The notes beneath the pieces were generated by a model. The model saw nothing but the letters and a program-made list of their open reading frames with translations. It did no database searches and was not told the DNA's origin. Below, in pieces: positions 7,467 to 45,954 of a stretch of 45,954 bases of DNA (the first letter of the stretch is position 1; each line of letters starts with the position of its first letter). The stretch is from the IMG/VR virus record IMGVR_UViG_3300025127_000071, positions 1 through 45,954 of that record; one strand, given 5' to 3'. The stretch comes from a virus. The translations under genes were made by a program, and so were the position numbers.

Positions 7467-7727
7467 TTATTGTTCTACTATTGATTTTTCTTTTTTACCA
7501 AACTCTGGTTTATTCTTTTTTTCTTTCATTGCTTTTATAGCTGCATCTGACATTGGCATATCTCCGTCATCTAAAGGTCTCATTTTAATTTTACCATTGT
7601 CACAATAAAATTCTCCTTTTTCTCTTGCAGCTTCTTTTTTTCCGCCTGGCTTTTTTAAATATGGTTTTTCCCAAGCTGCCCAAGCCGTTGCGCACTTGTC
7701 TTGTCTAAATGGTGAATTACTTTTCAT
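7467..7727 (-). CDS. Small basic SP-motif protein (86 aa)
   Basis: Begins MKSNSPFRQDKCATAWAAWE: an SPF motif directly after the start, then a Cys-Ala-rich helix with tryptophans, then a charged, probably disordered Lys/Glu tail (KAMKEKKNKPEFGKKEKS). The SP-start plus Cys-Ala helix pattern recurs in several small genes of this operon and in the 42-45 kb block, suggesting a related set. The gene is one base after the upstream stop codon. Function unknown; virion-associated is a guess. Confidence 0.6.
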   Translation of the reverse strand: MKSNSPFRQDKCATAWAAWEKPYLKKPGGKKEAAREKGEFYCDNGKIKMRPLDDGDMPMSDAAIKAMKEKKNKPEFGKKEKSIVEQ

Positions 7728-7728
7728 T

Positions 7729-7971
7729 TTATAATTTTGTTATATAGTTACCTTTTTTATCTTTTTTTACTGTAGAATAATCTTGAGCACTAAGCTGTGG
7801 ATATTTTCCAGTTTGTTTTTTAACTTCTTTTTCTAACTCAAACTCTTCTACATAATCTCCAGGCTTGTATTTATTAGAAACTCTTATAGTATCTTTTACT
7901 TTTTCTCTAGGATCTTTTTCTTTGGGCAGCGGGGATTTACTGCTAAAAATTTTTTGAAATGGTGAACTCAT
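7729..7971 (-). CDS. Small charged SP-motif protein (80 aa)
   Basis: Opens with MSSPFQKIFSSKSPLPKEKD, so it carries two SP motifs (SPF, SPL) in the first 16 residues, followed by a Lys/Glu-rich segment with short beta-like patches (YVEEFELEKEV). It overlaps the upstream gene by 4 bases (ATGA). No known domain recognised; the SP motifs tie it to the other small proteins described here. Confidence 0.6.
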   Translation of the reverse strand: MSSPFQKIFSSKSPLPKEKDPREKVKDTIRVSNKYKPGDYVEEFELEKEVKKQTGKYPQLSAQDYSTVKKDKKGNYITKL

Positions 7972-8252
7972 GATTTTTTTGATTTATTTTTTTGACAAAA
8001 GTTTCGAGCAGCTTCTACACTACCGAAACCCCACTTTTTTAGTGCCATTGCTTTTTTAGTTGGTTCGCCTTTAGCATCTTTCATTGCTCCAGCCATACCA
8101 GCAAACCTACAAGCAAATGACACTCTTCGCTTGTTAGTTCCTTTTGTGAGTCTTTTACCTAACGTTTTACCTGTATCTCTCTTATGCTCTGCGCGCATAG
8201 CTTTATTTTGCTTTTCGTAAGCTTTTTCTTTTATTTGATTAGGTGATTTCAT
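7968..8252 (-). CDS. Small basic protein, DUF6321-like C-terminal motif (94 aa)
   Basis: Starts MKSPNQIKEKAYEKQNK (SP motif at the N-terminus) and ends with a conserved-looking block: RRVSFACRFAGMAGAMKD (about 42-59), then KKAMALKKWGFGSVEAARNFC (65-85). That block, with 'RFxGM...MKDxxGxPTxxAxALxxWxxGS', is familiar from a widespread family of small proteins in marine and algal viruses (DUF6321-like, from memory). It overlaps the amidase gene by 4 bases. The biochemical role of the family is unknown. High basic content fits nucleic-acid or virion binding. Confidence 0.65.
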   Translation of the reverse strand: MKSPNQIKEKAYEKQNKAMRAEHKRDTGKTLGKRLTKGTNKRRVSFACRFAGMAGAMKDAKGEPTKKAMALKKWGFGSVEAARNFCQKNKSKKS

Positions 8253-8656
8253 ATGTTACAATATTCTTTATTTGCATCAAAACAAGGACAGGCTTTGTTA
8301 GCAAACTCTCTGTGTCCGTGTATTGTTGCGTCAGGATGTAGTCTCTTTAATGTTTTAAGTAAGTATAAGAGACTTTCTTTTTGATCTCGTGTTCTAGTAT
8401 CTTTTGGCTCCATATCAGCATCTAAACCGCCAATATAACAAACGCCTATACTGTGTTTATTTCTTCCTTTTACATGCGCACCTATGTCTTGCACAGGTCT
8501 TCCGTATTCGATAGATCCATCTATTCTAACTACATAGTGATAACCTATGCACCTCCAACCTCTATCTTTATGCCACTTATCAATTGTAGCGGCAGATATT
8601 TTATTACCTTCTTTTGTAGCAGAACAATGAATAATTATTTCATTTATTGTTCTCAT
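8249..8656 (-). CDS. N-acetylmuramoyl-L-alanine amidase (T7 lysozyme-like endolysin)
   Basis: A 135-residue single-domain amidase_2 protein close in size to T7 lysozyme (151 aa). Zinc ligands are evident: H10 in IIIHCSAT, H113 in TIHGHREF and C123 in KACPCFD. The GYHYVVRIDGSIEYGRP segment (38-54) is the usual core strand region. It cleaves the amide bond between muramic acid and the stem peptide during lysis. There is no signal peptide, so it would need a holin for access. Its start overlaps the end of a small one-helix membrane protein gene by 17 bases, which is a plausible holin partner. Confidence 0.93.
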   Translation of the reverse strand: MRTINEIIIHCSATKEGNKISAATIDKWHKDRGWRCIGYHYVVRIDGSIEYGRPVQDIGAHVKGRNKHSIGVCYIGGLDADMEPKDTRTRDQKESLLYLLKTLKRLHPDATIHGHREFANKACPCFDANKEYCNI

Positions 8657-8804
8657 TATTTTTTACATTTTTCCATTTAGATACAGTGTATCCTATAGTT
8701 ACTACTAGCAAAAGTATTTTTAAACCGTCTTCAATGTGAGTAAAAGTTGTAACACTTAGGGTGCCTACGTTCATAGCATAAAGCTTGATATCTGATATAC
8801 TCAT
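8640..8804 (-). CDS. Small one-helix membrane protein, candidate holin (54 aa)
   Basis: The frame starts MSISDIKLYAMNVGTLSVTT and contains one hydrophobic segment at about 28-42 (GLKILLLVVTIGYTV) followed by a basic tail (SKWKNVKNNENNK). Its ATG overlaps the upstream TAA (TAATG) and its end overlaps the amidase start, so it is coupled to the endolysin. Size, topology and position fit a small holin or holin-like lysis protein; similar short proteins precede phage amidases in marine podoviruses (from memory). No signature proves it. Confidence 0.65.
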   Translation of the reverse strand: MSISDIKLYAMNVGTLSVTTFTHIEDGLKILLLVVTIGYTVSKWKNVKNNENNK

Positions 8805-9328
8805 TATTCTCCACATTTTTTAGACGGATCATCAACTCTTCGCCAGTCTTCTTTTTCAAACCAATCGCGTAGTGTAGCTCCTTTTTTACGAGCACCTTTA
8901 ACATTTGTTTTAGACGATCTTTTATATTTACCTTTTGCGCCAGCAGATTTTTTAGAACTAACTAGCTTCTGTCTTTCTTCTTTACTCATGCTGCGTATTT
9001 TAGCTGCAGGTAAACAAGTTTTAGTCGTACCACCACCTTTTTGTTTTTTAAGCGGTGTATTTTTCATTTCTTCTATATGCCTTTCAACAACTTTAGCTTG
9101 ACCTAAGTGCATTTTAGAAGCTTTTCTTAATTGACCAGCTACATCTTTTAAAGTTTCTTTTTTTGCCAATGGAGCATTACGCATTTTTTTAGCATTAGCT
9201 AAACCTTCTTTATTACCGCCACCTCTACCTGCTACAGCAGCTGTTCTATTTCGCATTTTATTCCAAGGCTTTGAGTGCATTACAGTTGCAGCACAATGCT
9301 GGAAAGGAGTTCCTTGTTCGTATGCCAT
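8804..9328 (-). CDS. Basic protein, DUF5872-like C-terminus (174 aa)
   Basis: A highly basic protein beginning MAYEQGTPFQHCAATVMHS, with a central helical part, a Lys/Ser/Gly-rich low-complexity region (about 100-150) and a C-terminal GATLRDWFEKEDWRRVDD block ending in KKCGE. That end resembles the short Trp-rich C-termini of DUF5872-type viral proteins (from memory). It is coupled by 1-base overlaps on both sides. No enzyme motif. It could bind DNA or be packaged; function unknown. Confidence 0.6.
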   Translation of the reverse strand: MAYEQGTPFQHCAATVMHSKPWNKMRNRTAAVAGRGGGNKEGLANAKKMRNAPLAKKETLKDVAGQLRKASKMHLGQAKVVERHIEEMKNTPLKKQKGGGTTKTCLPAAKIRSMSKEERQKLVSSKKSAGAKGKYKRSSKTNVKGARKKGATLRDWFEKEDWRRVDDPSKKCGE

Positions 9329-9570
9329 TATTTCTTATCTAATTTACGCATAGCTTTATTTCTAGCACACTTCATTTTTTTAGCGTAGCTAGGATTTTTC
9401 TTGCGGTTAAACACTATTTGCTGGTTTAAACTACCAACAATTTTCTTTTTATTACCTTTTCTACTTTTGATAAGCCAATCAGCTAAAGCTTCACAGCTAA
9501 GATCTTTAAACTTACCTTTAGCATCTGGTGCATCAGAGTCTTTCCACTCAGGTCTTTTTTCTTTTGCCAT
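9328..9570 (-). CDS. Small basic protein (80 aa)
   Basis: The middle reads ALADWLIKSRKGNKKKIVGS then NQQIVFNRKKNPSYAKKMK, a motif set I associate with small conserved proteins of marine phages without known function. It is strongly basic, has two cysteines, no membrane segment and no SP motif. It overlaps the upstream gene by 23 bases and the downstream one by a single base. Likely made together with its neighbours; role unknown. Confidence 0.6.
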   Translation of the reverse strand: MAKEKRPEWKDSDAPDAKGKFKDLSCEALADWLIKSRKGNKKKIVGSLNQQIVFNRKKNPSYAKKMKCARNKAMRKLDKK

Positions 9571-9727
9571 TACAGTCTTGCATGTTTATAAACCAGTTAG
9601 CTAATTGCTTATCACGGCCAGTAGCTTCTTTTCTAGCTTTTAGTTTTTTAACTTTAGCACACGTTACATCGCCTCCGTATAATTTATTAATACGAGCTTT
9701 TAAAACACCACGATATGCTTTTGCCAT
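9548..9727 (-). CDS. Small basic protein (59 aa)
   Basis: The frame starts MAKAYRGVLKARINKLYGGD and includes VTCAKVKKLKARKEATGRDK and LANWFINMQDCNG. Start and stop are coupled with the neighbours (TAATG at 9727; 23-base overlap at 9548-9570). It resembles the adjacent small proteins in basic charge and its paired cysteines. No domain recognised. Confidence 0.55.
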   Translation of the reverse strand: MAKAYRGVLKARINKLYGGDVTCAKVKKLKARKEATGRDKQLANWFINMQDCNGKRKKT

Positions 9728-9882
9728 TATTTCTTTTTACCTCCGCCAAACTTACTTGGACCACCAGCTTTAGTGCATCGTACACCCCAGCCTGAAGCGT
9801 AAGCGCTAGGCCAAACTTTAAATTTTCTTTTTGCTGCAGCTTTACAAGCTGAACTTATTTTACCATATAAAGGACTACTCAT
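9727..9882 (-). CDS. Small SP-motif protein, DUF5872-like (51 aa)
   Basis: The frame MSSPLYGKISSACKAAAKRK continues into FKVWPSAYASGWGVRC and a Gly/Lys-rich tail. The 'KxKVxPSAYAxGxxVxxC' string is typical of DUF5872-like viral proteins (from memory). It carries the N-terminal SPL motif and Cys-Ala helix shared with other genes here. Its start overlaps the end of the 3088-aa gene by 8 bases and its stop overlaps the next ATG. Confidence 0.65.
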   Translation of the reverse strand: MSSPLYGKISSACKAAAKRKFKVWPSAYASGWGVRCTKAGGPSKFGGGKKK

Positions 9883-19146: not shown

Positions 19147-20247
19147 TTAACTTAAGTTATTGTCTTGTAAAAATTTATCTGCTTTGGCTTGTTTAGCCTC
19201 TTCCAAATCAAACACAGCTGCATCTGCTTCTACAGTAGGTAGTTTTTGCGTTATAAATTGTTTTAAGTAATTTTTAGAAAAATATAATGTATAATTTTCT
19301 TCAAATAATTCTTTGTTTTCTTGTGATAAAGGTAGTACTTTTTTGTAATCCCAAGCTAAGCTACCTGCATTAGCGTTTTGCATCATTTGATCATCTTCTT
19401 CTTCGCTAGATCCTCTTGCTATAAAAACGTTCCAAGCGGCTACAACGCTTTGCTCTTGTTGCATTAGTCCAGCAACTTCTGCATTTATAAAAGGCTTTGT
19501 TTTTCTAACAATTTTATCTATGTCAAACTTTAGTATATTTCTACCTTTACCCATGCCTATATCTATAATTTCATAATCAAAAGAACCGTCGGTGTTTTTT
19601 AATATAAATTCATCTGCTATAGCCGCTTGTGGTAGCAGTTGACCGTTTTCATCTGCAGATCCTTCTGCTAAAACACCGCTGTCTACTAAAAGTTTTAACA
19701 TGTCTGCATTAATATCAGGTGTTTCTGTTACTAAATCATTACCAGAGTTAATTAAAGCATTTAAAGTGTTACTATTTATTACTAAAGGCTTTTCAAATAA
19801 AGGTCCTTCAAAGGTTATTTCTTGAGATCCATCTCTTAATAACTCTAAGTAAACATTATAACCTTCTGTTTTTGAAAAACCAGGTTTATTTTTCATTATA
19901 CAATTAGCAACCATAAAAGCATAATTATTGTTTACGTCATAGTAATTATCATCTGTAACAGATAGTTGGTCGACAACCTGTTGTATAAAGTTTACAGAAA
20001 CTGTTGGAGCGTTTTCTAGTCTAGCTATTTGTTTATTTTCATAATCACAGTATTCATCTACACATTTACCTGTTTGCACCGCCATTTTTAGCTTAGCATA
20101 CTCTTTGCCAGTATCTTTATACGCATTGTCTAGTATACCAAAAGTGGTATCTATATTAGTTGCAACGTAATCAGTGTTATAGGCAAGAGCGTTACTCTTG
20201 TTAGCTTGCTGTATTGAAAGATTGTATGTTATGTTTTTATTTTCCAT
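19147..20247 (-). CDS. Hypothetical virion-module protein (366 aa)
   Basis: Begins MENKNITYNLSIQQANKSNA. The protein is acidic, apparently mixed alpha/beta, with no membrane segment or catalytic motif that I can identify. An acidic Glu/Asp loop (SSEEEDDQMMQNANAG) lies near residues 279-294, and the C-terminus is charged and helical. It sits 5 bases upstream of the giant gene and 3 bases after the internal virion protein gene, within the tail/internal protein cluster, so a structural or ejected protein is the best guess. No family recognised. Confidence 0.7.
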   Translation of the reverse strand: MENKNITYNLSIQQANKSNALAYNTDYVATNIDTTFGILDNAYKDTGKEYAKLKMAVQTGKCVDEYCDYENKQIARLENAPTVSVNFIQQVVDQLSVTDDNYYDVNNNYAFMVANCIMKNKPGFSKTEGYNVYLELLRDGSQEITFEGPLFEKPLVINSNTLNALINSGNDLVTETPDINADMLKLLVDSGVLAEGSADENGQLLPQAAIADEFILKNTDGSFDYEIIDIGMGKGRNILKFDIDKIVRKTKPFINAEVAGLMQQEQSVVAAWNVFIARGSSEEEDDQMMQNANAGSLAWDYKKVLPLSQENKELFEENYTLYFSKNYLKQFITQKLPTVEADAAVFDLEEAKQAKADKFLQDNNLS

Positions 20248-21461: not shown

Positions 21462-23231
21462 TTAATATCCGTTATTCATGTCGTAATTACTTTCGACAGA
21501 AAATAAAGTTTTCTCACCACCTGGATTAGTTGTTAAGTCGGTAGACATTTTTACAGTAGCATAAAAACCTTTTATACCAGTAATATTTTTACCAAAATTA
21601 ACTTCACCTGGACTAGGTCCTGTATTGTTTACTAAGTTAGCAACGTATTTATTTTCTTTTAAAACAAAACCACTGTAGTATTTATTTAATGGCGGAGGCA
21701 CGTTAGAACCAAAAACATTTGAATATTGGCTAGCTCCAACAACTCCATTAAACGTAATAATATTGCCGCTTGTTAAAGTAACTGGTTCAGTTAAAACTAA
21801 AGCGCCGGTAGAATTGTTATAAGAAACCACTCTTCTAGATCCTTGAGTTATTTCATCAGAAAAAATAAAATTACCTGCAAAAATAAAACCTGTAATAGAA
21901 CCTGTATCTAAAGTAACATTAACAGAAGCAGTAACATCTTGAGCAACTGTACCTTGAGCCTCCGTTAAAACATACTCTCCTTCTGTATAACTATATATTA
22001 AGCTAGAATTATCTTGATTATCAACAAAAGTATTGCCTGCAAAATTTCTTAATATTACTGGTCCTGTTTGATCTGAAATAATACTATCTACTTGCCAACC
22101 ATTACTACCTTCGTAGCCTATTGTTTTAAAAGTTTTAGAGTTTGTTGGATTTGGATTAAATACAAAAGTAATTGAACTTTTATTGTCTACGCCGTAAAAA
22201 TTACTTCTAGGTACTTGATTGCTATAGTGTCTAAAAAGTTTAGCTTTTCTATAATCAGAGCTGCTTGGATTGTTTATTGTTTTTACAGAATAAAAATTAT
22301 TTCTTAAACTAAACATTTCGTCTGGCTCGTAGTCAAAGAAACTTACCCAACCTTGAGCTTTTTCGTCAAAATTTAATGTATTAGCTTGATTTATTCTTGC
22401 TACTGGACTTTGACTTGATTGAGGGTTTTGAATAGAAACGACATATTCATTGCCATATATATCATAAGAACCTAGCACTTTTCCTCTTACAGAAACATTT
22501 GCTGACAAGGCTAAATTATCTCTAAAAAAGTCTTTCATTCCATAAGAAGATATTTCTGTAATACCATCTCCTGATAATTTAAGAACTACATTGTTATTTT
22601 TGTCTGTAAAATATTTTCTATTTGCATATACGCCAAAACTTTCAGGGTTTTGAGATATACCGTATTTACCTAAATATGGTTGTATTGCGCCAATAACTAA
22701 ATTAGAACTTGTAACAGCTCCACCACCTTCGGCAGAATATATTGCGTCTTTATCTATTAATGCTCTACTTACTTTTAATTCTTGGAATATACTTAAATTA
22801 GTATCTTCTGCATATAATTTTTGTATTGACCCGTTTGCAGGATCTAAACTTTTAGTTATATCTTCAGCAACGCTAAAAACATTAGTATTGTTTATACCTG
22901 TTCTAGAGTTAAATATGCCAGAATATATTAAAGTATTAAATCTTCTAGTTCCCTTAGGTTCGTCTTCTACTATATAGGCTTTTGCTCCAAAATCAACAGA
23001 AGTGTTATTAAATCCACCTCTAATTCTAGATTCTTCAATAACCCAACTGTTTTCTTGATCTAAACCTGACTGAACTGGATAACCAGTGGCTAGAAAAGGT
23101 GGATTTCCAGATGCTCCTAAATCAGTAGGCATACCAAAAGATCCATTCCAAACAGGAGTTGGAGTTGCGTTATTTATCTTTTTCAGTAGAAAAGTATTAA
23201 AATATTTTACTTCTATTATTGCACCTGCCAT
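21462..23231 (-). CDS. Tail protein, likely partner or split-off part of the stabilization/muzzle protein (589 aa)
   Basis: Beta-rich, with motifs such as FNSRTGINNTNVFS, SIQKLYAEDTNLSIFQELKV, SRALIDKDAIYSAEGG (about 150-170) and GWVSFFDYEPDEMFSLRNNF (about 292-311). These strings belong, from memory, to the C-terminal part of large tail stabilization (tail-tube/muzzle) proteins in crAss-like and marine Bacteroidota phages. Here they are a separate gene directly after the 1849-aa tail gene, 32 bases downstream. The last 170 residues look like an added Ig-like/fibre domain (many Thr, Asn, Gly). It probably sits at the distal tail. Confidence 0.7.
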   Translation of the reverse strand: MAGAIIEVKYFNTFLLKKINNATPTPVWNGSFGMPTDLGASGNPPFLATGYPVQSGLDQENSWVIEESRIRGGFNNTSVDFGAKAYIVEDEPKGTRRFNTLIYSGIFNSRTGINNTNVFSVAEDITKSLDPANGSIQKLYAEDTNLSIFQELKVSRALIDKDAIYSAEGGGAVTSSNLVIGAIQPYLGKYGISQNPESFGVYANRKYFTDKNNNVVLKLSGDGITEISSYGMKDFFRDNLALSANVSVRGKVLGSYDIYGNEYVVSIQNPQSSQSPVARINQANTLNFDEKAQGWVSFFDYEPDEMFSLRNNFYSVKTINNPSSSDYRKAKLFRHYSNQVPRSNFYGVDNKSSITFVFNPNPTNSKTFKTIGYEGSNGWQVDSIISDQTGPVILRNFAGNTFVDNQDNSSLIYSYTEGEYVLTEAQGTVAQDVTASVNVTLDTGSITGFIFAGNFIFSDEITQGSRRVVSYNNSTGALVLTEPVTLTSGNIITFNGVVGASQYSNVFGSNVPPPLNKYYSGFVLKENKYVANLVNNTGPSPGEVNFGKNITGIKGFYATVKMSTDLTTNPGGEKTLFSVESNYDMNNGY

Positions 23232-31835: not shown

Positions 31836-33335
31836 TTACACTCCTTTGAAAAGTACAAAGTTGTTAGCGGCTTGCACAACTAAACATCTTTCAGATAGGA
31901 AGTTTACTTCCATAGCATCAAGAGTAGATGTAAATGCACCACCAGCAGAACCAGTCAACCAAGACTTCATGCGTCGATCATCAGCCTGTGAAGCTCTGTA
32001 TCGTACGTGCAAGAAAGGTCTACGGATGTTAGTTCCTAGTACTTGATCGTAAACAGTTGATGTTCCAGCAGGTACTAATACACCTTCGATAGAGCTAATT
32101 CCATCGATAGCGCCACGAGTTGAAGCATCGTTTAAGTATTTCCAATCAGTTTTGTAGAAATCATAAGAACCTCTTCGGAAACCGCTGAAACCTAAGTTTA
32201 ATGCCATTTCTTCTGAGTTTTCAAATAATCCAAAAGCAGTACCACCAGCAGCTCCGCCAGAGATTGCAGCTAACATATCGTCAAAATCTAAAGCAGTTTG
32301 GCGATTTAAGAAAAGCATGTTTTCTTCAATAGCACCTTGCGTGTCTAGGTTTTTCAATATAGCATCAAACTCATCTAGGCCGTTTGCAGCAGTAAATCCT
32401 ACTTCTACGTTACCACGTGTTTGGATAGCAGAGAATAAACCTTCACTTCCTGGTAATTGACCTTCTGTGTAAAGACCAGCAGCGATTTGGTTATATTCTG
32501 ATTCTACCATTGCCATTTCTAAGTAATCTTCAAAGCGTAATCTTGTTTCAGATTCTGCTTTTAAGTACCATAAATATCCAGAAGCACCATCTTCAGTTGC
32601 AACTTCTACCCAACCAATTTGCGCCATATCAGAACCAGATACTACGTATTGATCTCTAATGATGATTGGTGAGTTAGAAAACTGCGTGAAACTAGGCTCT
32701 ACACTGTTTCTAGAGGCTGAATTACCAATACCAGTTCCAACTGTTCCAGCTATTGTAGTTCCTTTAGTATATGAAGATCCGTATACGAATACTTTGATAC
32801 CAGCAGGTCCTGCTCCAACACCAAAGTTAGCAGCAGTTCCAGACCAATCAGCAAGACCGATAAGTCCATTACCGCTAAAAGGAGCTACAGTAAAGTTACC
32901 ACCAGGGCCTGTAGCAGTTACAGCAGTTACGATACCTTTAGCTTCAGCGCCATTTACTGGGTTTAATAACACTACTGTGTCGTTAACAGACACAACAACG
33001 TTTTGATCAGCAGCAACTGTAATAACGTTACCAACATTTGCGGCTCCGTTAATTCCAACACCAAAGTCTGTGTAAGAAATGTGTAATCTATTTTGTTCAG
33101 ACCAAATTACTTGATCAGATGTCATTGGCATTTCAGCGCCAACCATTCGCAAAAACCCAGATAACGTTCTGTTTCCATAACGCTCTACTTCTTGCTCATA
33201 TACTTCAGGTAGGTACTGCTGAGTAAATGTATCAGTGTTACCAGCACCTCCGTCGTTAAATTGTAGGTAGTTGCTATTCAACGTTTCCATTGTTTGCGTT
33301 GGGATTAAACTACCAAATTGAGGAGTTAAACTCAT
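31836..33335 (-). CDS. Major capsid protein (HK97-fold, crAss-like)
   Basis: A 499-residue protein in the canonical place after terminase, portal and scaffold-like genes. The N-arm region (FTQQYLPEVYEQEVERYGNR, about 38-57) and LHISYTDFG followed by a Gly/Val/Thr-rich inserted beta domain (about 80-200) fit the capsid proteins of crAss-like phages, with SPIIIRDQYVVSGSDMAQIG and the E/P-loop-like helix ASGYLWYLKAESETRLRFED after it. The base composition is visibly less AT-rich than in its neighbours and codons look more uniform, as expected for the most abundant virion protein. No protease or cleaved delta domain is obvious. The strong terminator follows. Confidence 0.9.
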   Translation of the reverse strand: MSLTPQFGSLIPTQTMETLNSNYLQFNDGGAGNTDTFTQQYLPEVYEQEVERYGNRTLSGFLRMVGAEMPMTSDQVIWSEQNRLHISYTDFGVGINGAANVGNVITVAADQNVVVSVNDTVVLLNPVNGAEAKGIVTAVTATGPGGNFTVAPFSGNGLIGLADWSGTAANFGVGAGPAGIKVFVYGSSYTKGTTIAGTVGTGIGNSASRNSVEPSFTQFSNSPIIIRDQYVVSGSDMAQIGWVEVATEDGASGYLWYLKAESETRLRFEDYLEMAMVESEYNQIAAGLYTEGQLPGSEGLFSAIQTRGNVEVGFTAANGLDEFDAILKNLDTQGAIEENMLFLNRQTALDFDDMLAAISGGAAGGTAFGLFENSEEMALNLGFSGFRRGSYDFYKTDWKYLNDASTRGAIDGISSIEGVLVPAGTSTVYDQVLGTNIRRPFLHVRYRASQADDRRMKSWLTGSAGGAFTSTLDAMEVNFLSERCLVVQAANNFVLFKGV

Positions 33336-33350
33336 AATATAAAGTTTTTA

Positions 33351-34547
33351 TTAGTTAAATTTTCTTGTTTTTATTTTAAGCTTTGTAGAATCAGCACCTG
33401 AAATTGCTTTTACTTTCATTCCGCCTATAAATACATCACCTTGAGTAGTCCTAGCTTTAGTGTCACTTAGGTTTTTTGACTTATTTACAACTTCTTTAAT
33501 AGCGTCTGCTTTTCCTTGCTCATAAAAATGAGCGGCAATTTTATCTACATTGTCAGCAGCGTAAATAGCTTTATGATAACCAGCGTGATCTACAACGTCA
33601 CCATTCTCGTTTAAGAACTTCCCAACGAGGTTTGTTATATTTGACTGGTTTTCTGCAATCTTATCTTTGTTTTGAATATTATACTTATATTTCTTTTCGC
33701 CTACTGTGATATCAAAACCTTTGAAATCATTGCCAAAAAGTTTTTTTGTATTTTCTTTAAACGCTTGATGTTGTTGCTCAGCTTGTTCTTGCTGCTTGTT
33801 ATATCTATTGAAAAAGTCCATAGCTTTTTGTTGTTCTTGAGTAACGCCCGGTCTCAACTTGATCTCGTCGTAGTATTTACTCTTTGTTTCTTCTAAAAAG
33901 TTTTTGGCTTTTGCAACTTCTTCTTTAAACGCAAGCTTTTTTTTGCGTATATCTCTTTCCTCGTCTATGTCTTCATCATAATCAAACTCTTCTAACAGAA
34001 GGTTAAGATCTTCAGAATCTAAATAAGGTTTATTTTTTTTGTAATACTCTTTAATAAGAGTTTTATCATCTGTGTTGCTATAGTCGGCGTTTAGCCTTGT
34101 ATAGTCTTCTATTGTTCCACCAGTTTCTTCCATGAAAGCAACTAGCTTTTCTATATTTTCTGGTAATTGTTTACCTAATACTTTTTCGTCTCTTATTGCT
34201 TCTTTAACTTCAGCCTCAACTTGTTTAACTTCAGCTTCAGTTACTTCTTGGATCGGAGAAAACCCTTCAGCAGTCTCGTTGGACTCTTGTACAGGTTCTC
34301 CCATCTTTGAGCTATCTCCGGATGATTCTTCCACAGATACCTTCTCTGCTTCTCCGATTTGAATGGCATCGTCTTCTTTTTTAATTTCAACCTTAGTTAC
34401 ATTATCTTGTAATTCAACTAAAGGTTCTTTAGCATTAACTTTTACTTTTGTTACGTTGTCTTTTGTTTCGGTTAATTTTTTAGGTGTTTTCTTTTTAATT
34501 TTAAAATCACCTTCTTGCTTTACAGCTTCTTGTGTTTCTTGTGACAT
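33351..34547 (-). CDS. Scaffold-like acidic coiled-coil protein (398 aa)
   Basis: Located between portal and capsid genes. Highly charged: a low-complexity acidic N-terminus (residues 1-130; repeats such as DNVTKVKVNAKEP and DNVTKVEIKKED), long predicted coiled-coil helices (about 190-270; QQEQAEQQHQAFKENTKK) and a basic C-terminal end (KLKIKTRKFN). A short ordered unit lies near 310-365 (LVGKFLNENGDVVDHAGYHK). Composition, position and basic tail fit a scaffolding protein that guides capsid assembly by binding the capsid protein through its C-terminus. No motif proves it. Confidence 0.75.
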   Translation of the reverse strand: MSQETQEAVKQEGDFKIKKKTPKKLTETKDNVTKVKVNAKEPLVELQDNVTKVEIKKEDDAIQIGEAEKVSVEESSGDSSKMGEPVQESNETAEGFSPIQEVTEAEVKQVEAEVKEAIRDEKVLGKQLPENIEKLVAFMEETGGTIEDYTRLNADYSNTDDKTLIKEYYKKNKPYLDSEDLNLLLEEFDYDEDIDEERDIRKKKLAFKEEVAKAKNFLEETKSKYYDEIKLRPGVTQEQQKAMDFFNRYNKQQEQAEQQHQAFKENTKKLFGNDFKGFDITVGEKKYKYNIQNKDKIAENQSNITNLVGKFLNENGDVVDHAGYHKAIYAADNVDKIAAHFYEQGKADAIKEVVNKSKNLSDTKARTTQGDVFIGGMKVKAISGADSTKLKIKTRKFN

Positions 34548-39193: not shown

Positions 39194-39465
39194 TATGATG
39201 ATCTACCTTCTGCAAAACCTTTAAAAACTCTTGTGTTTTCTTCTTTAGGTTTTTCGTTTAATAAGTTTTCTTCCTCTTCAATGCGATTAAGTATTTCAAA
39301 GGCGTCGAATATAGCTAGTTTTTTTGTAGCTGCAGCGTTTTTAAGTCTGTCAGCAGCTAAATCATCATCTGATTCAACTATAGCTTCTTTAGCGACTTTG
39401 ATTAACTCTTCAACTGCTCGTTGCCCAGCTTGGATTATATTCTTCTTCGTTTCCTTGGTATTCAT
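39193..39465 (-). CDS. Small helical protein upstream of terL (90 aa), possible small terminase
   Basis: All-helical, charged: ERAVEELIKVAKEA-like stretch (QRAVEELIKVAKEAIVESDD, residues 15-34), then AATKKLAIFDAFEILNRIEE (45-64) and a Lys/Glu-rich end. It overlaps the tandem GroES-like gene by 56 bases and terL by one (TAATG). Coupling to terL and a short helical, oligomerisation-type sequence suggest a terminase small subunit or packaging accessory, but no helix-turn-helix is clear. Function unproven. Confidence 0.55.
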   Translation of the reverse strand: MNTKETKKNIIQAGQRAVEELIKVAKEAIVESDDDLAADRLKNAAATKKLAIFDAFEILNRIEEEENLLNEKPKEENTRVFKGFAEGRSS

Positions 39466-40015
39466 ACTTAATTACAATATCATTAGATTTCATACAATAA
39501 AGTCTTTTTCCTTCGACTAAAAACTCCCATTCACTATTAGGCGTGTAGCCAACTACATCTCCTGGGTTTATTTCTAGCGCTTCTAACGACTTATTGCCAT
39601 ATTTTAATATACCAACAAGACTGCGTTCTTTATTAAGCGTTAGAGAATCATTACTTTTTATAGGCGTTATAAAACATCTGTCACCAAAAGTTTTCCAACC
39701 TTTTTTATTTTTATATAAATAAACCTGGTCAAGGCTACAAAAATATAAATCATTTTCAAAATAAGATCTGCTTTTCTTTTTTTTACCTTTCATGTCGTAA
39801 AAGGTTCTAAAAATATTCTGGTGTATAACTACTATATCACCTTTTTTAATGCCGGATTTAAAAGCTATTGGTGTTTCAACAACTTCAGCTAAACGGTTTA
39901 CAAATTTCCAGTTTTCAATTTTAGTATTGACAACTACATTTCTACCTGCTATTTTAACTGTGTTTGTGTATTTATCACCTACAGGCTTTACGATGAAATC
40001 GTATAAGCTTTTCAT
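39410..40015 (-). CDS. Tandem GroES-like (Cpn10-like) protein, two domains (201 aa)
   Basis: Two successive GroES-like halves are visible. Half two (about 105-184): GDRCFITPI, SLVGILKYG, LEINPGDVVGYTPNSEWEF and RLYCMKSNDIVI align with the GroES sequence order (GDRVLVKP, GEVVAVG, VKVGDKVLF, xEYLIMRESDIL). Half one (about 1-104): FIVKPVGDKY, an AGRNVVVNT loop where GroES has GGIVL, RLAEVVETP, IKKGDIVVIHQ, FENDLYFCSLDQVYLY. Ordinary GroES is about 97 aa, so 201 aa is a double unit, as in plastid Cpn20. The gene sits next to terL. The mobile loop of half two is short, so GroEL binding may be via half one. I infer a phage co-chaperonin or a virion/assembly factor derived from one. The similarity is by pattern, not alignment. 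Confidence 0.7.
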   Translation of the reverse strand: MKSLYDFIVKPVGDKYTNTVKIAGRNVVVNTKIENWKFVNRLAEVVETPIAFKSGIKKGDIVVIHQNIFRTFYDMKGKKKKSRSYFENDLYFCSLDQVYLYKNKKGWKTFGDRCFITPIKSNDSLTLNKERSLVGILKYGNKSLEALEINPGDVVGYTPNSEWEFLVEGKRLYCMKSNDIVIKYEYQGNEEEYNPSWATSS

Positions 40016-41080: not shown

Positions 41081-41479
41081 TTATTTATTTTTTATAATTT
41101 GTTTTGTTTTCTCCCAGCTACGACCTACAAAGTATGCGCCATATACTGTTACTAATAATGTTTGAAATATTGGTATATACTCTTCTGCTATTTTAAACTG
41201 ACCTATGTTGCCATCAAAAAAAGCACAAGCCGTAAATATTACAGTTAAGTATATTAATACTAAAGGTCTTATATTTTTAGATAGTTTACTATCCGAAGCC
41301 ATATCAGCAGCCCATCGAGCACTTACTTGCTCTTGAGCTTCAGTGTCTGCTTTTTCTAATATTTCTGTTATTAATCTTTGTGCTTCTAGCTTTTCTTCTT
41401 TAGTTGTTGTTAAATCATCTATAACTTGACCAACTTCTTTTATAACATTGCCAGTAAGCCATTGCCATAATTTTTTCAT
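41081..41479 (-). CDS. Holin, GTA 3TM family-like (132 aa)
   Basis: A charged helical N-terminal part (residues 1-65, including RWAADMASDSKLSKNIRPL, the characteristic junction of the GTA_holin_3TM family) is followed by hydrophobic helices at about 72-88 (PLVLIYLTVIFTACAFF) and 102-118 (IPIFQTLLVTVYGAYFV), with a basic tail. Family members are proposed to make lesions in the inner membrane. Unlike the classical arrangement there is no amidase beside it; the neighbour is a small zincin. The amidase lies about 32 kb away in the same strand direction. Confidence 0.8.
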   Translation of the reverse strand: MKKLWQWLTGNVIKEVGQVIDDLTTTKEEKLEAQRLITEILEKADTEAQEQVSARWAADMASDSKLSKNIRPLVLIYLTVIFTACAFFDGNIGQFKIAEEYIPIFQTLLVTVYGAYFVGRSWEKTKQIIKNK

Positions 41480-41790
41480 GCTTTATCGTATGCTTCGTTT
41501 TCCCAAGGCAGCTTCGCATTTCCTTCGTCCATCTTAGCTCTTGAGTATTTTTTACCTTTCCAATACACGTAATCATCATCGTAGTTGAGATCACCTCTTT
41601 TCATTTGATCTATATGTACCATTTCGTGTTTTACAACATCATCAAATTTTTCAACTGGTACATTTTTATTTATAATAATAGTTAAATTATTATTAGCTTT
41701 ACCCATAACATCATCTTCCATATCGACGTGATATATCGGAGTGCTAAATAGCTTTTTGTCGTATGGTGGATTGTTAAGTTTAAATGCCAT
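41476..41790 (-). CDS. Small zinc metallopeptidase-like protein (104 aa)
   Basis: HEMVH (H55, E56, H59) followed by IDQMKRGDL is a typical gluzincin/minigluzincin HExxH, with E97 or E99 (PWENEA) as possible third ligand, and TIIINKN before it matching the edge strand. The size is that of minimal zincins seen in phages. Substrate unknown: cell-wall peptide or protein processing are both possible. It overlaps the holin gene by 4 bases, so a lysis-associated role is suggested by context only. Confidence 0.75.
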   Translation of the reverse strand: MAFKLNNPPYDKKLFSTPIYHVDMEDDVMGKANNNLTIIINKNVPVEKFDDVVKHEMVHIDQMKRGDLNYDDDYVYWKGKKYSRAKMDEGNAKLPWENEAYDKA

Positions 41791-42389: not shown

Positions 42390-42719
42390 TTATTTATTCA
42401 TACAATGACCTTTCAGCGGGCTACCGATTCTTGATTGGTTAGCGTGCTTAGACATCCATGATCTACCTCCACTAGCATCTTTGGCTACTGGATTGTCATG
42501 CAATAAATTGTATTTCTCTTGTTTTTTAGTTTCCATCTCTGCTGGGCTATGTCCCATTTCTGCAGGGCTATGTCCCATCTCGGCAGGTGAGTGACCCATT
42601 TTATATGGACTCATTTCTGCTGGGCTATGTCCCATTTTTGGTGCCGCATCGTATTTCATTTGTGGCGCAGCTTTCTTTTTTACTTTTGAAAGCTTTTTAG
42701 TCATTCTTTTTTCAGGCAT
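42390..42719 (-). CDS. Repeat protein with GHSPAEM units (109 aa)
   Basis: The middle is made of heptapeptide units GHSPAEM (one, then three in tandem) with a SPYKM linker, preceded by a Lys/Ala-rich N-terminus (KKAAPQMKYDAAPKM) and followed by a tail with SRIGSPLKGH. It therefore contains five or six SP motifs in about 70 residues. Probably disordered. The DNA copies differ at silent sites, so they are not very recent duplications. Function unknown; it is the most extreme member of the SP-motif set. Confidence 0.65.
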   Translation of the reverse strand: MPEKRMTKKLSKVKKKAAPQMKYDAAPKMGHSPAEMSPYKMGHSPAEMGHSPAEMGHSPAEMETKKQEKYNLLHDNPVAKDASGGRSWMSKHANQSRIGSPLKGHCMNK

Positions 42720-42730
42720 AATATTAATTT

Positions 42731-43258
42731 TTATGTGTTTTTATTCATTGCTTTAGCTTTTCCTATTTCCCAACCTTCAATCTCTCCATTTTTGTTTATG
42801 TCTTGAGGTACAAATTTTTTTGTAGCAGGTGAATCTTTATCTCTATCTAAATCTTCAGCTTTCAAATTTTTAACTCTCTTACTTTTATTTTCGTCTAAAG
42901 TTTCATAATCTTTATGCTCTAGCTTTAGGTGTGCCTTGATAACTCTTGGTCCTTCTTCTTTTAGCTGTGAGTGAGATTTTCCATATACTTTATTTTTAGC
43001 TGGTGAACCATGATGTTTTTTATCATATTTCATATCGCCTGCTAATTTTGAAATATGTTTTTCATCAGCAGTCATTTTCTCGTCGCTGTGTCCGTGATGA
43101 TCATCATATAATATATCACGTTTTAAATAGTCAATATGCGCCGCATCATCTCTTTCAGATGCTTTATAGTTTTCTTTAGTAACTTTTGTGTGGGCATGAT
43201 CTTTTGACCATTTTGCGTTACCAGTATATTCACCCCAGTGTCCTTTTTGATATCCCAT
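42731..43258 (-). CDS. His/Lys/Asp-rich protein with EF-hand-like loop (175 aa)
   Basis: Strongly charged, with histidine clusters (DDHHGHSDEK near 52-61; KKHHGSPAKNK near 80-90) and SP motifs (GSPAK, DSPATK). Residues 153-164 (DINKNGEIEGWE) match the 12-residue EF-hand/dockerin calcium loop at positions 1, 3, 5, 6, 8 and 12. A single EF-hand plus His clusters suggests metal binding, which is inference. No other domain is recognised. It overlaps the upstream gene by one base. Confidence 0.65.
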   Translation of the reverse strand: MGYQKGHWGEYTGNAKWSKDHAHTKVTKENYKASERDDAAHIDYLKRDILYDDHHGHSDEKMTADEKHISKLAGDMKYDKKHHGSPAKNKVYGKSHSQLKEEGPRVIKAHLKLEHKDYETLDENKSKRVKNLKAEDLDRDKDSPATKKFVPQDINKNGEIEGWEIGKAKAMNKNT

Positions 43259-43914
43259 TATGTTAATCCGTATTTTTCTTTATCTTCTTTTGACATCATT
43301 CTTTTTAATGTGTCAAATTGATTATCTTTGTTTTTATTTGCTATGTCTTCAAATTGAGTTTGATCAACAAGAGCTTCAGCTTGCCTTTTCTTTAGCTTGT
43401 CAGTTTTTTTATCAAACTTATCTCTTTTAGTTTCTATAGGGTCTACAGATATTCCAGTCAAAGCTTTACTAACATCTGCTATTTGTTGACCACTCATTCC
43501 TTTGTCATCTGCTCTTTGATTTCTTTTATCTATTCTTTTCTCTAAACGCTGAGCTTTCATAGCTTTTCTTTTGGCCATATTTTCTGGTCCAGATGCTGCA
43601 GCTATTTTATCAACACTTGAAGTCATAGTATCAATCATATCTTTATAAAGATCAGCAGTAGGTTGATAATGACTAACTCTTTCTTCACCATCTACATATC
43701 CTTGAAAAGGCGACATTTTAGCTGCAGATTCTGATTCGTGTGACTTTTCAGCTTCTTTTGCTTTATCTAATTGTTCGTTTACTTTAGGATCATCTCTATT
43801 ATAATCTCCAGGAGTTCCAGATTTTTCTGAAAGTTTTCTAGCCTTATCGTAAAATTTTTGTTGATGCTTAGGTAATGGTGACTTCATCATAAAGCCGTCT
43901 CTGAATTGTGTCAT
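43258..43914 (-). CDS. Charged helical SP-motif protein (218 aa)
   Basis: Near the N-terminus FMMKSPLPKHQQKFYDKARK, and again KMSPFQGYVDGEERVSHYQP near residue 67, so SPL and SPF motifs open two segments. The remainder is Lys/Glu/Asp-rich helix with basic stretches (KAMKAQRLEKRIDKRNQRAD). No catalytic motif or membrane segment. It lies in the small-protein block between groES and the capsid region. Unknown function. Confidence 0.6.
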   Translation of the reverse strand: MTQFRDGFMMKSPLPKHQQKFYDKARKLSEKSGTPGDYNRDDPKVNEQLDKAKEAEKSHESESAAKMSPFQGYVDGEERVSHYQPTADLYKDMIDTMTSSVDKIAAASGPENMAKRKAMKAQRLEKRIDKRNQRADDKGMSGQQIADVSKALTGISVDPIETKRDKFDKKTDKLKKRQAEALVDQTQFEDIANKNKDNQFDTLKRMMSKEDKEKYGLT

Positions 43915-43917
43915 AGC

Positions 43918-44130
43918 TTATTTTTTAGAACAACCAAAGTTTTTAGCATAGTTTGCCATTTTAACTACAGCTGGTTTATATTTATCTTTATTTTTCATTA
44001 CAGCACTAGCAGCTGCACAAGTAGATTTACCTGGCATATTTTTTTTAACCCAAGCAGTAAACTTACCTTTGTTTTCTTCTTTTATTTCAGGAAAAGGCTC
44101 ATGACCTTTTAATAGTGGAGATGTATACAT
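43918..44130 (-). CDS. Small SP-motif protein with Cys-Ala helix (70 aa)
   Basis: Opens MYTSPLLKGHEPFPEIKEEN, then KFTAWVKKNMPGKSTCAAAS and AVVKMANYAKNFGCSKK. It shares the SPLxKGH sequence with the 42390-42719 protein and the Cys-Ala-helix theme with the genes near 7.5-9.9 kb, despite lying 34 kb away. The family is known to me only as short conserved phage proteins of unknown function. Confidence 0.6.
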   Translation of the reverse strand: MYTSPLLKGHEPFPEIKEENKGKFTAWVKKNMPGKSTCAAASAVMKNKDKYKPAVVKMANYAKNFGCSKK

Positions 44131-44345
44131 TACTTACATTTTTTAGCGCATTCAGTAATAGGTAAAGCATTGTAATAGCTTTTAGCCTTTAACACTTGCA
44201 TGCCGTTAATACCTGAACTAGAACCAACTCCATGTGGTCTTCCGGTTTGATCTAATGGTCCGTCCCATATAGCATTTTCACCAACAACACCATGTACGTT
44301 TTTTGATGCCATTGTTTTGTTGTAGTTGTGATCTGTTTTATGCAT
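44130..44345 (-). CDS. Small hypothetical protein (71 aa)
   Basis: Gly/Asn/His-rich start (MHKTDHNYNKTMASKNVHGV), a NAIWDGPLDQTGRPHGVGSS region and a Cys/Lys tail (TECAKKCK). Its stop overlaps the start of the next gene by one base. No domain recognised and no membrane segment. Confidence 0.55.
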   Translation of the reverse strand: MHKTDHNYNKTMASKNVHGVVGENAIWDGPLDQTGRPHGVGSSSGINGMQVLKAKSYYNALPITECAKKCK

Positions 44346-44348
44346 AAT

Positions 44349-44861
44349 TTATTTTTTATTTTTATATTTACAAGCTCTTTTCATAAGTGAACTACCCATA
44401 GATACTTGTCTTTCTTCTGGTGTTCCAAACATTTGTAAACCCATACCTGCTACGCCAAACGTAGGAGTTTGAGGTTGAACTGGTGCTACAGGTTGAACTG
44501 GCGCCATAGGTTGAGGTGGGTTTAAAGCAGCTGATGATGTTGTGTTATCAATAGCATTATTAGTTTCAACATCAGGTATAGCATTAGATAATTCATCTGC
44601 AGGCCTTGTAGGTGCTTGAGCAGCTTGAATTCTTTGAGCTCTCATTCTTTGTCTACCAGTCATAGCAGCTCTTTCTTTGTAGTCTGCTAGAGCTTGAGCT
44701 CTTTTAGCTCTTTCAAGGCGTTTGTTTTTTTTAAAAGCACCACCAAAAATACCAATCATTTGATCAATACTTGGTTTAGTTCCTGTACTTCCAGGGTTTG
44801 CACTACCGCCACTAGCAACACGCGCTGCTGCTCCTACAATTTTAACTGGACTATTGCTCAT
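44349..44861 (-). CDS. Pro/Gln/Ala-rich SP-start protein (170 aa)
   Basis: Starts MSNSPVKIVGAAARVASGGS (SP motif at residues 4-5), then a helical basic region (RLERAKRAQALADYKERAAM) and a Pro/Gln-rich repeat (PMAPVQPVAPVQPQTP, near 118-133), ending in SSLMKRACKYKNKK. Low complexity suggests disorder. It overlaps the winged-helix gene by 4 bases. Function unknown. Confidence 0.6.
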   Translation of the reverse strand: MSNSPVKIVGAAARVASGGSANPGSTGTKPSIDQMIGIFGGAFKKNKRLERAKRAQALADYKERAAMTGRQRMRAQRIQAAQAPTRPADELSNAIPDVETNNAIDNTTSSAALNPPQPMAPVQPVAPVQPQTPTFGVAGMGLQMFGTPEERQVSMGSSLMKRACKYKNKK

Positions 44862-45298
44862 CTGTTTTTATCTTTGTTTACGTTATAAATAGCTTTTGTC
44901 ATAACTTTATCAGTATATGTATTGCCATTAATTATTTTGTTTCTTTTACCAGTGTTTATATCTTCTTCGCCAAGCATAACTTTATATATTCTAGTTATAA
45001 GTTGTTTGCCTTTAAAAGAAACTTTGTATATATGGTATTTCTGAGTTGTTCTATTTCTGTGTCTCCACACTACTATCCAACCTTCTTTTAATAATCTATT
45101 CCAACGTCGGTTGTCCCAACTATAAGAATAAACACCCATTTCAAAATCTTTTTTAGTAAAAAAATCTATACAATCAAGGTATATAAGAAGTTCTAAATCT
45201 GCATCGTTTAAATTATTGTTACGACAGGCCCATTTTCTTATAATGCGATAGTGTTTCAAAAGGTTTAAATCTCTTATATCACTAGCATCTAATCTCAT
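44858..45298 (-). CDS. Winged-helix DNA-binding protein (146 aa)
   Basis: Helical N-terminal part (DIRDLNLLKHYRIIRKWACR), then LELLIYLDCIDFFTKKDFEM, a recognition-helix-like RRWNRLLKEGWI and a wing-like strand pair (VWRHRNRTTQKYHIYKVSFK). This is the layout of MarR-type winged-helix proteins: helix-turn-helix followed by a beta wing with basic residues. A transcription regulator role is likely, but the target is unknown. It overlaps groES by 4 bases (ATGA), so it is co-expressed with the chaperonin genes. Confidence 0.7.
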   Translation of the reverse strand: MRLDASDIRDLNLLKHYRIIRKWACRNNNLNDADLELLIYLDCIDFFTKKDFEMGVYSYSWDNRRWNRLLKEGWIVVWRHRNRTTQKYHIYKVSFKGKQLITRIYKVMLGEEDINTGKRNKIINGNTYTDKVMTKAIYNVNKDKNR

Positions 45299-45555
45299 AA
45301 CACAACTACTATGTCACCAGACTTTATAACGTGATATGATTTTTTGTCAACCTCTATTTTATGACCCGCATGACGATCAAAATATATTACATCGCCTGGC
45401 TTAACACCCTCTACTTCACTACCAGCAGAAACTACTGAAGCTTGTACATAACGTATATCGTCTCTTTGGTTCTCAGCAAGAAGTAAACCACCTTTTGTTT
45501 TAGTAGTTCCTTCTTTTGCTTTGTTTATTATTAAGTTTCTACCTATTGCTTTCAT
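45295..45555 (-). CDS. groES: Co-chaperonin GroES (Cpn10)
   Basis: The frame begins MKAIGRNLIINKAKEGTTKT from the ATG at 45555; an in-frame TTG one codon upstream (45558) is less likely the start. The 86 residues show the GroES order: mobile loop TTKTKGGLLLAE (about 18-29), ASVVSAGSEVEGVKPGDVIY (39-58), DRHAGHKIEVDKKSYHVIKS and DIVVVL at the end. It caps the GroEL ring and releases folded substrate. It overlaps the end of groEL by 17 bases. The gene is phage-encoded and in order groEL-groES in transcription, opposite to the usual bacterial groES-groEL order. Confidence 0.93.
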   Translation of the reverse strand: MKAIGRNLIINKAKEGTTKTKGGLLLAENQRDDIRYVQASVVSAGSEVEGVKPGDVIYFDRHAGHKIEVDKKSYHVIKSGDIVVVL

Positions 45556-45954
45556 CAATTCTTAAATTATTAATTACACAATCAGTAGATAATATTGTTG
45601 TTGCTACAGAAGCTGCATTTTGAAGAGCGCTCTTGGTGACGAGTAAAGGATCTATTATACCCGACTCGATCATATTTACCATTTTTCCTGTAACCACATT
45701 ATAGCCTTGTCCTTTAGTAGTTGGTGTTTTTAAGTTATCAACACCAGCATTTTCAAGTATAGTTCTAAAAGGTGCTTTAATAGCTTCTAATAAAACTGTT
45801 TCGCCTTTAGACTTAGCTGTTATATTTGTTGCAGCGTTTAATAGAGCAATACCACCACCAGGAACAATCCCTTCTTTAATAGCAGCTTTAGTAGCACAGA
45901 TAGCGTCTTCTACTCTATCTGTTTTTTCTTTTAATTCTATTTCTGAATTAGCAC
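45539..45954 (-). CDS. groEL: Chaperonin GroEL, C-terminal part (5' partial)
   Basis: Open to the right edge: about 137 residues of the C-terminus. Visible are ELKEKTDRVEDA, EEGIVPGGG-type KEGIVPGGGIALLNAA, GVDNL, KGQGYNVVTGKMVNMIESGI, DPLLVTKSALQNAASVATTI and the last beta strand STDCVINN, ending in RIDESNR. It lacks the Gly-Gly-Met tail of bacterial GroEL. The nucleotide-binding GGG and the Asp-Pro hinge elements are retained. The protein should be a functional group I chaperonin (inference from the seen part only). The start of the gene is outside the window. Confidence 0.95.
   Translation of the reverse strand, partial: ANSEIELKEKTDRVEDAICATKAAIKEGIVPGGGIALLNAATNITAKSKGETVLLEAIKAPFRTILENAGVDNLKTPTTKGQGYNVVTGKMVNMIESGIIDPLLVTKSALQNAASVATTILSTDCVINNLRIDESNR

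Follow-up and report, generated by a model that had tools for sequence, protein, structure and literature searches.

The 45,954-base virus contig IMGVR_UViG_3300025127_000071, analyzed here in full and referred to as the window, carries a short serine–proline (SP) motif in two distant clusters of small genes. We propose, with moderate confidence, that this motif is a genome-wide peptide address tag: it sits mostly at the N-terminus of small late proteins that are otherwise unrelated, and a single phage partner common to all of them would read it, likely for the loading of virion cargo. The short form of the tag is [S/T]-P-[L/F/A]-x-K, with Met and His/Lys/Gly frequently ahead of it; the full form is M-S-S-P-F-Q-K-x-F-x-x-K-S-P-L, also written MSSPFQKxFSxKSPL. 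All SP-motif proteins are encoded on the minus strand, as are the virion genes, with one cluster (42390-44861) located before the terminase gene and the other (7467-9882) after a giant gene of 3,088 amino acids (aa). Ten of the window's small late proteins contain motifs of the [S/T]-P-[L/F/A..] type, and all strings listed in the first-pass annotation (SPLLKGH, GSPLKGH, four copies of GHSPAEM, two of KSPLPK, SPAK, SPAT and SPVK) were found in the genes to which it had assigned them. The features of the two clusters are the following:

7467..7727, minus strand: 86-aa protein with the tag MKSNSPFRQ; 15 of its 20 homologs are tagged
7729..7971, minus strand: 80-aa protein with the full-length tag MSSPFQKIFSSKSPLPK at its head
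7921..7938, minus strand: KSPLPK of the 80-aa protein, codons AAA TCC CCG CTG CCC AAA
7968..8252, minus strand: 94-aa DUF6321-like mini-domain with N-terminal MKSPNQIKE
8249..8656, minus strand: amidase (lysin) within the tagged cluster, never tagged, serving as an internal negative control
8804..9328, minus strand: 174-aa protein with TP variants of the tag (GTPFQH, NTPLKKQ) and helical and CLPxxK domains
9727..9882, minus strand: 51-aa DUF5872-like mini-domain with N-terminal MSSPLYGK
42390..42719, minus strand: 109-aa multi-copy protein with four GHSPAEM, one SPYKM and a C-terminal GSPLKGH
42405..42422, minus strand: SPLKGH close to the C-terminus of the 109-aa protein
42534..42632, minus strand: GHSPAEM/MSPYKM repeat block of the 109-aa protein, with both AGC and TCA as Ser codons
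42731..43258, minus strand: 175-aa Lys/His-rich protein with GSPAKNK and DSPATKK
43258..43914, minus strand: 218-aa protein with the N-terminal module MTQFRDGFMMKSPLPK and an internal KMSPFQG
43867..43884, minus strand: KSPLPK of the 218-aa protein, codons AAG TCA CCA TTA CCT AAG
43918..44130, minus strand: 70-aa protein, the tag MYTSPLLKGHE followed by a mini-domain of three helices, a homolog of one in the crassvirus cargo protein gp45
44101..44121, minus strand: SPLLKGH of the 70-aa protein
44349..44861, minus strand: 170-aa protein with N-terminal MSNSPVK

To evaluate the frequency of the motif, within-protein shuffles that keep composition were used to obtain expected counts. Among the 27 late proteins of small size that the window encodes, SP[LFAVYMI] was observed 15 times against 3.1 expected (z 7.3), SPL.{0,2}K four times against 0.09, and KSPLPK twice against 0.00; for the latter two patterns, none of 500 shuffles matched the count. 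The first-pass annotation had made its proposal of a shared motif dependent on the rate in equally Ser/Pro/Lys-rich host proteins. In such small proteins from two Flavobacteriaceae metagenome-assembled genomes (MAGs; n = 33), the motif proved to be at chance level (7 observed, 4.2 expected, z 1.5), as opposed to 120 observed against 18 expected (z 24) in equally rich proteins of tagged phages (n = 145); the corresponding proteins of untagged sister phages (n = 82) gave 5 against 6.6. Chance, composition and whole-protein homology are excluded as the origin of the shared motif.

The analysis was extended to about 320 loci, gathered by scanning viral contigs for the 70-aa protein, the terminase TerL and two small proteins; the gene set consists of uncurated ATG-started open reading frames on metagenomic contigs, and the sequences are mutually related. 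In the first 172 loci, [ST]P[LFAVYMI] was found 375 times in late small proteins against 156 expected, with no excess in late large (180 against 177) or early small proteins (4 against 6). The motif is concentrated at the N-terminus, with 322 occurrences in residues 1-15 against 34.8 expected, and its surroundings show clear residue preferences: Met at -4 to -2 and His/Lys/Gly at -1 upstream, and L/A/F/M at +2, Lys at +3, Met/Lys at +4 and Gly/His at +5 and +6 downstream. An unbiased k-mer ranking, in which each conserved family of the whole genomes counted once, placed SPL at the top of the short k-mers of tagged genomes (8.0 families against 1.8) and SPF at the top within the first 20 residues (4.8 against 0.3), while nothing comparable stood out in untagged genomes; an earlier run with one representative per cluster had missed SP, spurious reading frames having diluted the signal. 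Multi-copy proteins also occur elsewhere: a 231-aa late protein (L236:2936-3631) carries 11 [ST]P motifs, and a relative at L014:3207-3620 is made almost entirely of MGHxSPAK repeats.

The full-length tag MSSPFQKxFSxKSP[LI] and its variants, such as MSKFSTPFLNKSPL, MASKFSSSFMYKSPLPK and MTQFRDGFMMKSPLPK, head 53 distinct proteins, against 0.1 in shuffles. The bodies behind it fall into at least 16-24 clusters, and no significant body-to-body similarity was detected in ten same-genome pairs with like tags; one locus, L088, holds three genes with the full-length tag, two of them adjacent. A blind scan of all viral contigs for DNA encoding only M-S-S-P-F-Q-K-x-F-x-x-K recovered 58 stretches; they encode 56 distinct proteins, whose bodies form about 28 clusters. 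In about 50 of these proteins the sequence goes on with [S/T/N]-P, which lies outside the searched pattern.

Both KSPLPK genes of the window carry versions of one N-terminal module of about 15 residues, F-x3-F-x2-KSPL, and no similarity was found between the bodies of the 218-aa and 80-aa proteins. Since the module is present in both genes, the identical KSPLPK likely stems from a shared N-terminus and not from chance, and the two genes probably share one such module. The earlier remark that this identity is hard to explain by homology of the whole proteins therefore holds for the bodies, which are unrelated, but not for the N-terminal module, which is common to both; independent convergence, considered initially, was dropped once this module had been found. 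All six KSPLPK codons differ between the two genes, and the orthologous tags of the 70-aa family use both classes of Ser codon (28 TCN, 20 AGY), indicating that purifying selection acts on the tag at the protein level.

The tag is separable from the body that it precedes. Tagged members of the 70-aa family have an extension, of differing length and containing SPF or SPL (e.g., MYTSPFLK, MNSPFFKGHE, MSYYQINSPFLK), N-terminal to the conserved helical domain, and untagged members start without this extension (MAKKEFPEIKEK). SP was found upstream of the domain in 40 of 65 distinct DUF5872-like sequences (some of these being ISPACK starts, which are possible helix caps), 34 of 68 DUF6321-like, 44 of 75 CLPxxK and 15 of 20 DKCATAW sequences, as well as in 0 of 31 amidases of the tagged cluster and 1 of 71 HNYNKT proteins. 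Two side observations concern these domains. A helical module, KASKMHLxQAKxVExHI, followed by an SP or TP tag is joined to differing mini-domains across genomes (window 8804-9328; L070:9046-9348), which represents domain shuffling. The DUF6321-like mini-domain (window 7968-8252; L432:2923-3174; L433:2911-3216) also occurs in Pelagibacter and Methylophilales phages without an SPL/SPF tag; in the pelagiphage HTVC200P, such an untagged relative lies between the scaffold and capsid genes.

A test of whether the tags of different mini-domain families co-occur pairwise within loci lacked statistical power, and whole genomes were compared instead, using the window and 23 relatives with near-complete genomes and TerL identity of 67-91%. 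Late small proteins were enriched 2.7- to 5.2-fold in 12 genomes, the window included, with one more genome (G025) also enriched, and were at chance level (0 to 1.8-fold) in nine sister genomes; large and early proteins showed no consistent enrichment in any genome group. The gp45-like domain is tagged in 11 of 11 copies in enriched genomes versus 0 of 8 in the others, and eight mini-domain families taken together are tagged in 41 of 53 versus 1 of 18 cases. The full-length tag, always on late genes, occurs in 8 of the 12 enriched genomes and in none of the other nine. On the TerL tree, the tag label requires three changes, compared with 8.8 in shuffles. A trans-acting reader of the tag predicts such a lineage switch.

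A link to known virion cargo comes from the 70-aa SPLLKGH protein, whose folded part matches a segment of a crassvirus protein with 48% identity (tblastn, E 6e-7). The matched gp45-type protein is encoded directly after the stabilization gene, and its equivalent in cr128_1 contains the same mini-domain together with the curated crassvirus cargo-protein-1 domain PF25725 (E 1.6e-66). Alignment shows FTAxxKK...NKxxYxPxxVKxAxxAxN as the mini-domain common to the 70-aa protein and crassvirus cargo protein 1; PF25725 itself, the compact portal-docking domain, was not found in the 70-aa protein by Pfam, only the separate mini-domain being shared. When a joint profile was run against the sequences of the whole PDB, residues 370-423 of the PhicrAss001 cargo protein gp45 ranked first (E 0.016). 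AlphaFold predicts three helices for the 70-aa protein and leaves most of the tag region outside the fold at low confidence; with this model, Foldseek returned several crassvirus 'Cargo protein 1' matches (E 0.03-0.08, probability ~1). Judged by this homology, the 70-aa protein amounts to a domain of gp45 standing on its own; gp45 is established as virion cargo by cryo-electron microscopy and mass spectrometry, and its portal-bound part, residues 425-552, adjoins the matched segment (PMC10172136). The crassvirus gp45-type proteins examined (P0001-P0003) additionally contain short [KR]x[LYM]GG-like motifs that recur through the chain and may be a further linear motif used in repeats.

Considering these data, we hypothesize that one partner protein in tagged genomes reads the tag, most likely during head or tail assembly, and that the tagged mini-proteins would be loaded into the prohead or tail as cargo and injected into the host with the DNA. 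The tag would thus do in trans what covalent fusion within gp45 does in crassviruses, and would play the part that an N-terminal capsid-targeting sequence has for the internal proteins of phage T4; proteins with as many as 11 motifs could act as multivalent hubs. Among the functions offered by the first-pass annotation, a common targeting tag with capsid loading remains the best. A more specific version, in which marine Bacteroidota phages of a crassvirus-like lineage evolved a modular cargo code of one virion receptor, the SPL/SPFQKxFxxKSPL address and at least ten separate mini-effectors, exchangeable between phages and loaded for injection, with sister phages lacking it, appears to us plausible at slightly under even chances.

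The distribution data require a shared reader, not packaging, and the tag could also bind one phage partner within the infected cell, such as a chaperonin, a replication site or an assembly platform, unrelated to the virion. The phage indeed encodes GroES-like proteins, and the giant protein and the tandem GroES-like protein had been named earlier as possible partners; still, both also occur in sister genomes that lack the motif, and neither is supported as a partner specific to the tag. A proven virion cargo protein contains a region homologous to one tagged domain (PMC10172136), and the tag is restricted to late genes, the lysin and early genes lacking it, which makes an exclusively intracellular partner unlikely. 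The removal of the tag by a phage protease during maturation would fit its N-terminal placement, reminiscent of the T4 targeting sequence that is cut off by the prohead protease (PMC7697877), and a small HEMVH metallopeptidase-like protein is encoded nearby (41476-41790). This protein, however, also occurs in untagged genomes, copies of the motif are internal, repeated (up to 11 per protein) and C-terminal as well, and Pfam recognized no prohead protease among the scanned window proteins, the capsid and portal being equally invisible to it; the suggestion of a protease site thus retains very little probability. An N-terminal extension with SP tags is present in the version of the metallopeptidase-like protein (HEMVHIDQ) at L134:4721-5188.

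Small basic proteins coating the genome would offer another role for the motif. SPKK/SPXK is a DNA minor-groove binding motif known from histone H1, and Lys is enriched at +3 and +4 in tagged proteins that are themselves Lys-rich, with up to 11 copies in one protein. Position +2, however, is hydrophobic (L, F, A) and not basic, so the S/T-P-K/R-K/R pattern of histones is not reproduced; the acidic GHSPAEM and the ordered MSSPFQKxFSxKSPL forms fit poorly, and the motif's absence from sister-genome proteins that are just as basic is left unexplained, making this reading very improbable. That the N-termini resemble each other only through duplicated or recombined gene starts, the peptide being without function, is a similarly slim prospect: the full-length tag is clearly one module in common, both KSPLPK genes included, but synonymous codons are mixed, Ser is retained across changes of its codon class, the short form turns up in a wide range of contexts and at internal positions too, and selection is implied by the lineage switch. 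As for a structural or chance background, with SP at helix starts (N-cap) or as a product of low complexity, the ISPACK at the start of the DUF5872-like helix does resemble an N-cap, yet composition-preserving shuffles and host proteins exclude chance, Lys at +3 disfavors N-capping, and AlphaFold places the tag at low confidence outside the folded part. This explanation is refuted for most cases, and we give it almost no weight.

Within our preferred reading of a cargo-loading tag, phyletic profiles yielded one weak candidate for the receptor or a co-cargo:

19147..20247, minus strand: 366-aa protein

Its family is the only one present in 12 of 12 tagged and 0 of 9 untagged genomes. The slot, between the ejection-like and giant genes, is the most divergent in an otherwise conserved virion gene order, and since it holds non-homologous proteins in untagged genomes, the 366-aa protein is a lead only; as proof of a receptor it was rejected, the label being clade-bound. 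Several points weigh against cargo loading. No receptor was identified, the sole co-segregating family being this fast-evolving one, for whose predicted fold no match was found. No virion proteomics was found for any tagged phage; the cultured relatives examined lack the tag cluster, and a search for tagged families in cultured phages recovered none. The PDB match to gp45 is marginal when taken alone. Most tagged genomes form one clade, with three label changes on the tree, so that the Fisher value of 7e-8 overstates independence and few independent events lie behind the genome-level association. Finally, the untagged sisters carry the same mini-domains, and the tag is therefore not universally needed.

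The window belongs to a phage that resembles podoviruses, has a muzzle of the crassvirus type and is related to phages of flavobacteria. Its muzzle-like tail protein is the following:

21462..23231, minus strand: muzzle-like tail protein, PF25729 crAss_MUZ_C, E 1.3e-10, above the cut-off

TerL, portal and capsid were assigned to PHROGs 6681, 6547 and 13704, respectively; the capsid protein is encoded at 31836-33335 and a scaffold candidate at 33351-34547. The closest annotated phages comprise one environmental genome, sampled at Manatee Spring (63% TerL identity), and cultured phages of Flavobacterium, Maribacter, Cellulophaga and Tenacibaculum. As relatives span 44-77 kb, the window is probably a fragment of a larger genome, and MAG contigs bearing a relative, together with the cultured relatives, suggest a host among the Flavobacteriaceae. 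PHROG and Pfam scans of the tagged proteins mostly returned nothing beyond DUF6321 and a weak DUF5872, and PADLOC gave one weak, uninformative match. Two GroES-like proteins are encoded by the window phage, one double-length (39410-40015, PHROG 13932) and one single Cpn10 (45295-45558; PF00166, E 1.4e-13). In one relative (G012, the contig of L256; C1:7228-9437), TerL contains several stop codons and split frames, reflecting frameshifts, decay or assembly error.

Terminal targeting peptides are a known kind of signal, of which the capsid-targeting sequence (CTS) of T4 and the encapsulin peptides are examples. The T4 CTS is an N-terminal peptide of about 10 residues on internal proteins, sufficient to encapsidate foreign proteins (PMC7697877). 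Like it, the SP tag is a short N-terminal peptide common to small late proteins with unrelated bodies; unlike it, the SP tag is also internal, C-terminal and multi-copy. The T4 CTS is not known to match the SP tag in sequence, and the resemblance is one of kind only. Encapsulin targeting peptides are short, disordered terminal peptides that direct dedicated cargo into an HK97-fold shell (PMC10960027). The similarity is again one of kind, as encapsulin peptides are usually C-terminal (e.g., GSLNIGSLK) and serve one cargo class per shell, whereas the SP motif is mostly N-terminal, has no sequence relation to them, and does not follow the GSLxIGSLK-like pattern. Polyvalent proteins of phages unite numerous small domains whose delivery together with the DNA is predicted, and their genes adjoin virion genes (Iyer et al. 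2017, PMC5512222). The SP-tagged proteins likewise comprise many small domains with predicted delivery, encoded close to virion genes; in contrast to the fused domains of polyvalent proteins, they are small, separate chains, most with a single mini-domain and joined only by the common tag. A further counterpart is crassvirus cargo protein 1 (gp45, PF25725), which shares the mini-domain of the 70-aa protein and comes from phages with a similar muzzle-type tail, but contains the domain within one large portal-docked polypeptide, whereas the window encodes a free-standing tagged protein.

In the open-access papers searched, nothing was found on the tag sequence, its use in repeats, the switch between lineages or the connection with crassvirus cargo. 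Together, our results suggest that a portable peptide marks dozens of uncharacterized small phage proteins for one process, a case of function by address and not by homology, and that it predicts which proteins of unknown function have a common partner or end up in the virion. If the motif is a loading tag, it would be a second capsid-targeting peptide besides that of T4 and would explain how crassvirus-like phages could deliver many separate proteins, as an unlinked counterpart of the polyvalent and gp45-type cargo proteins.

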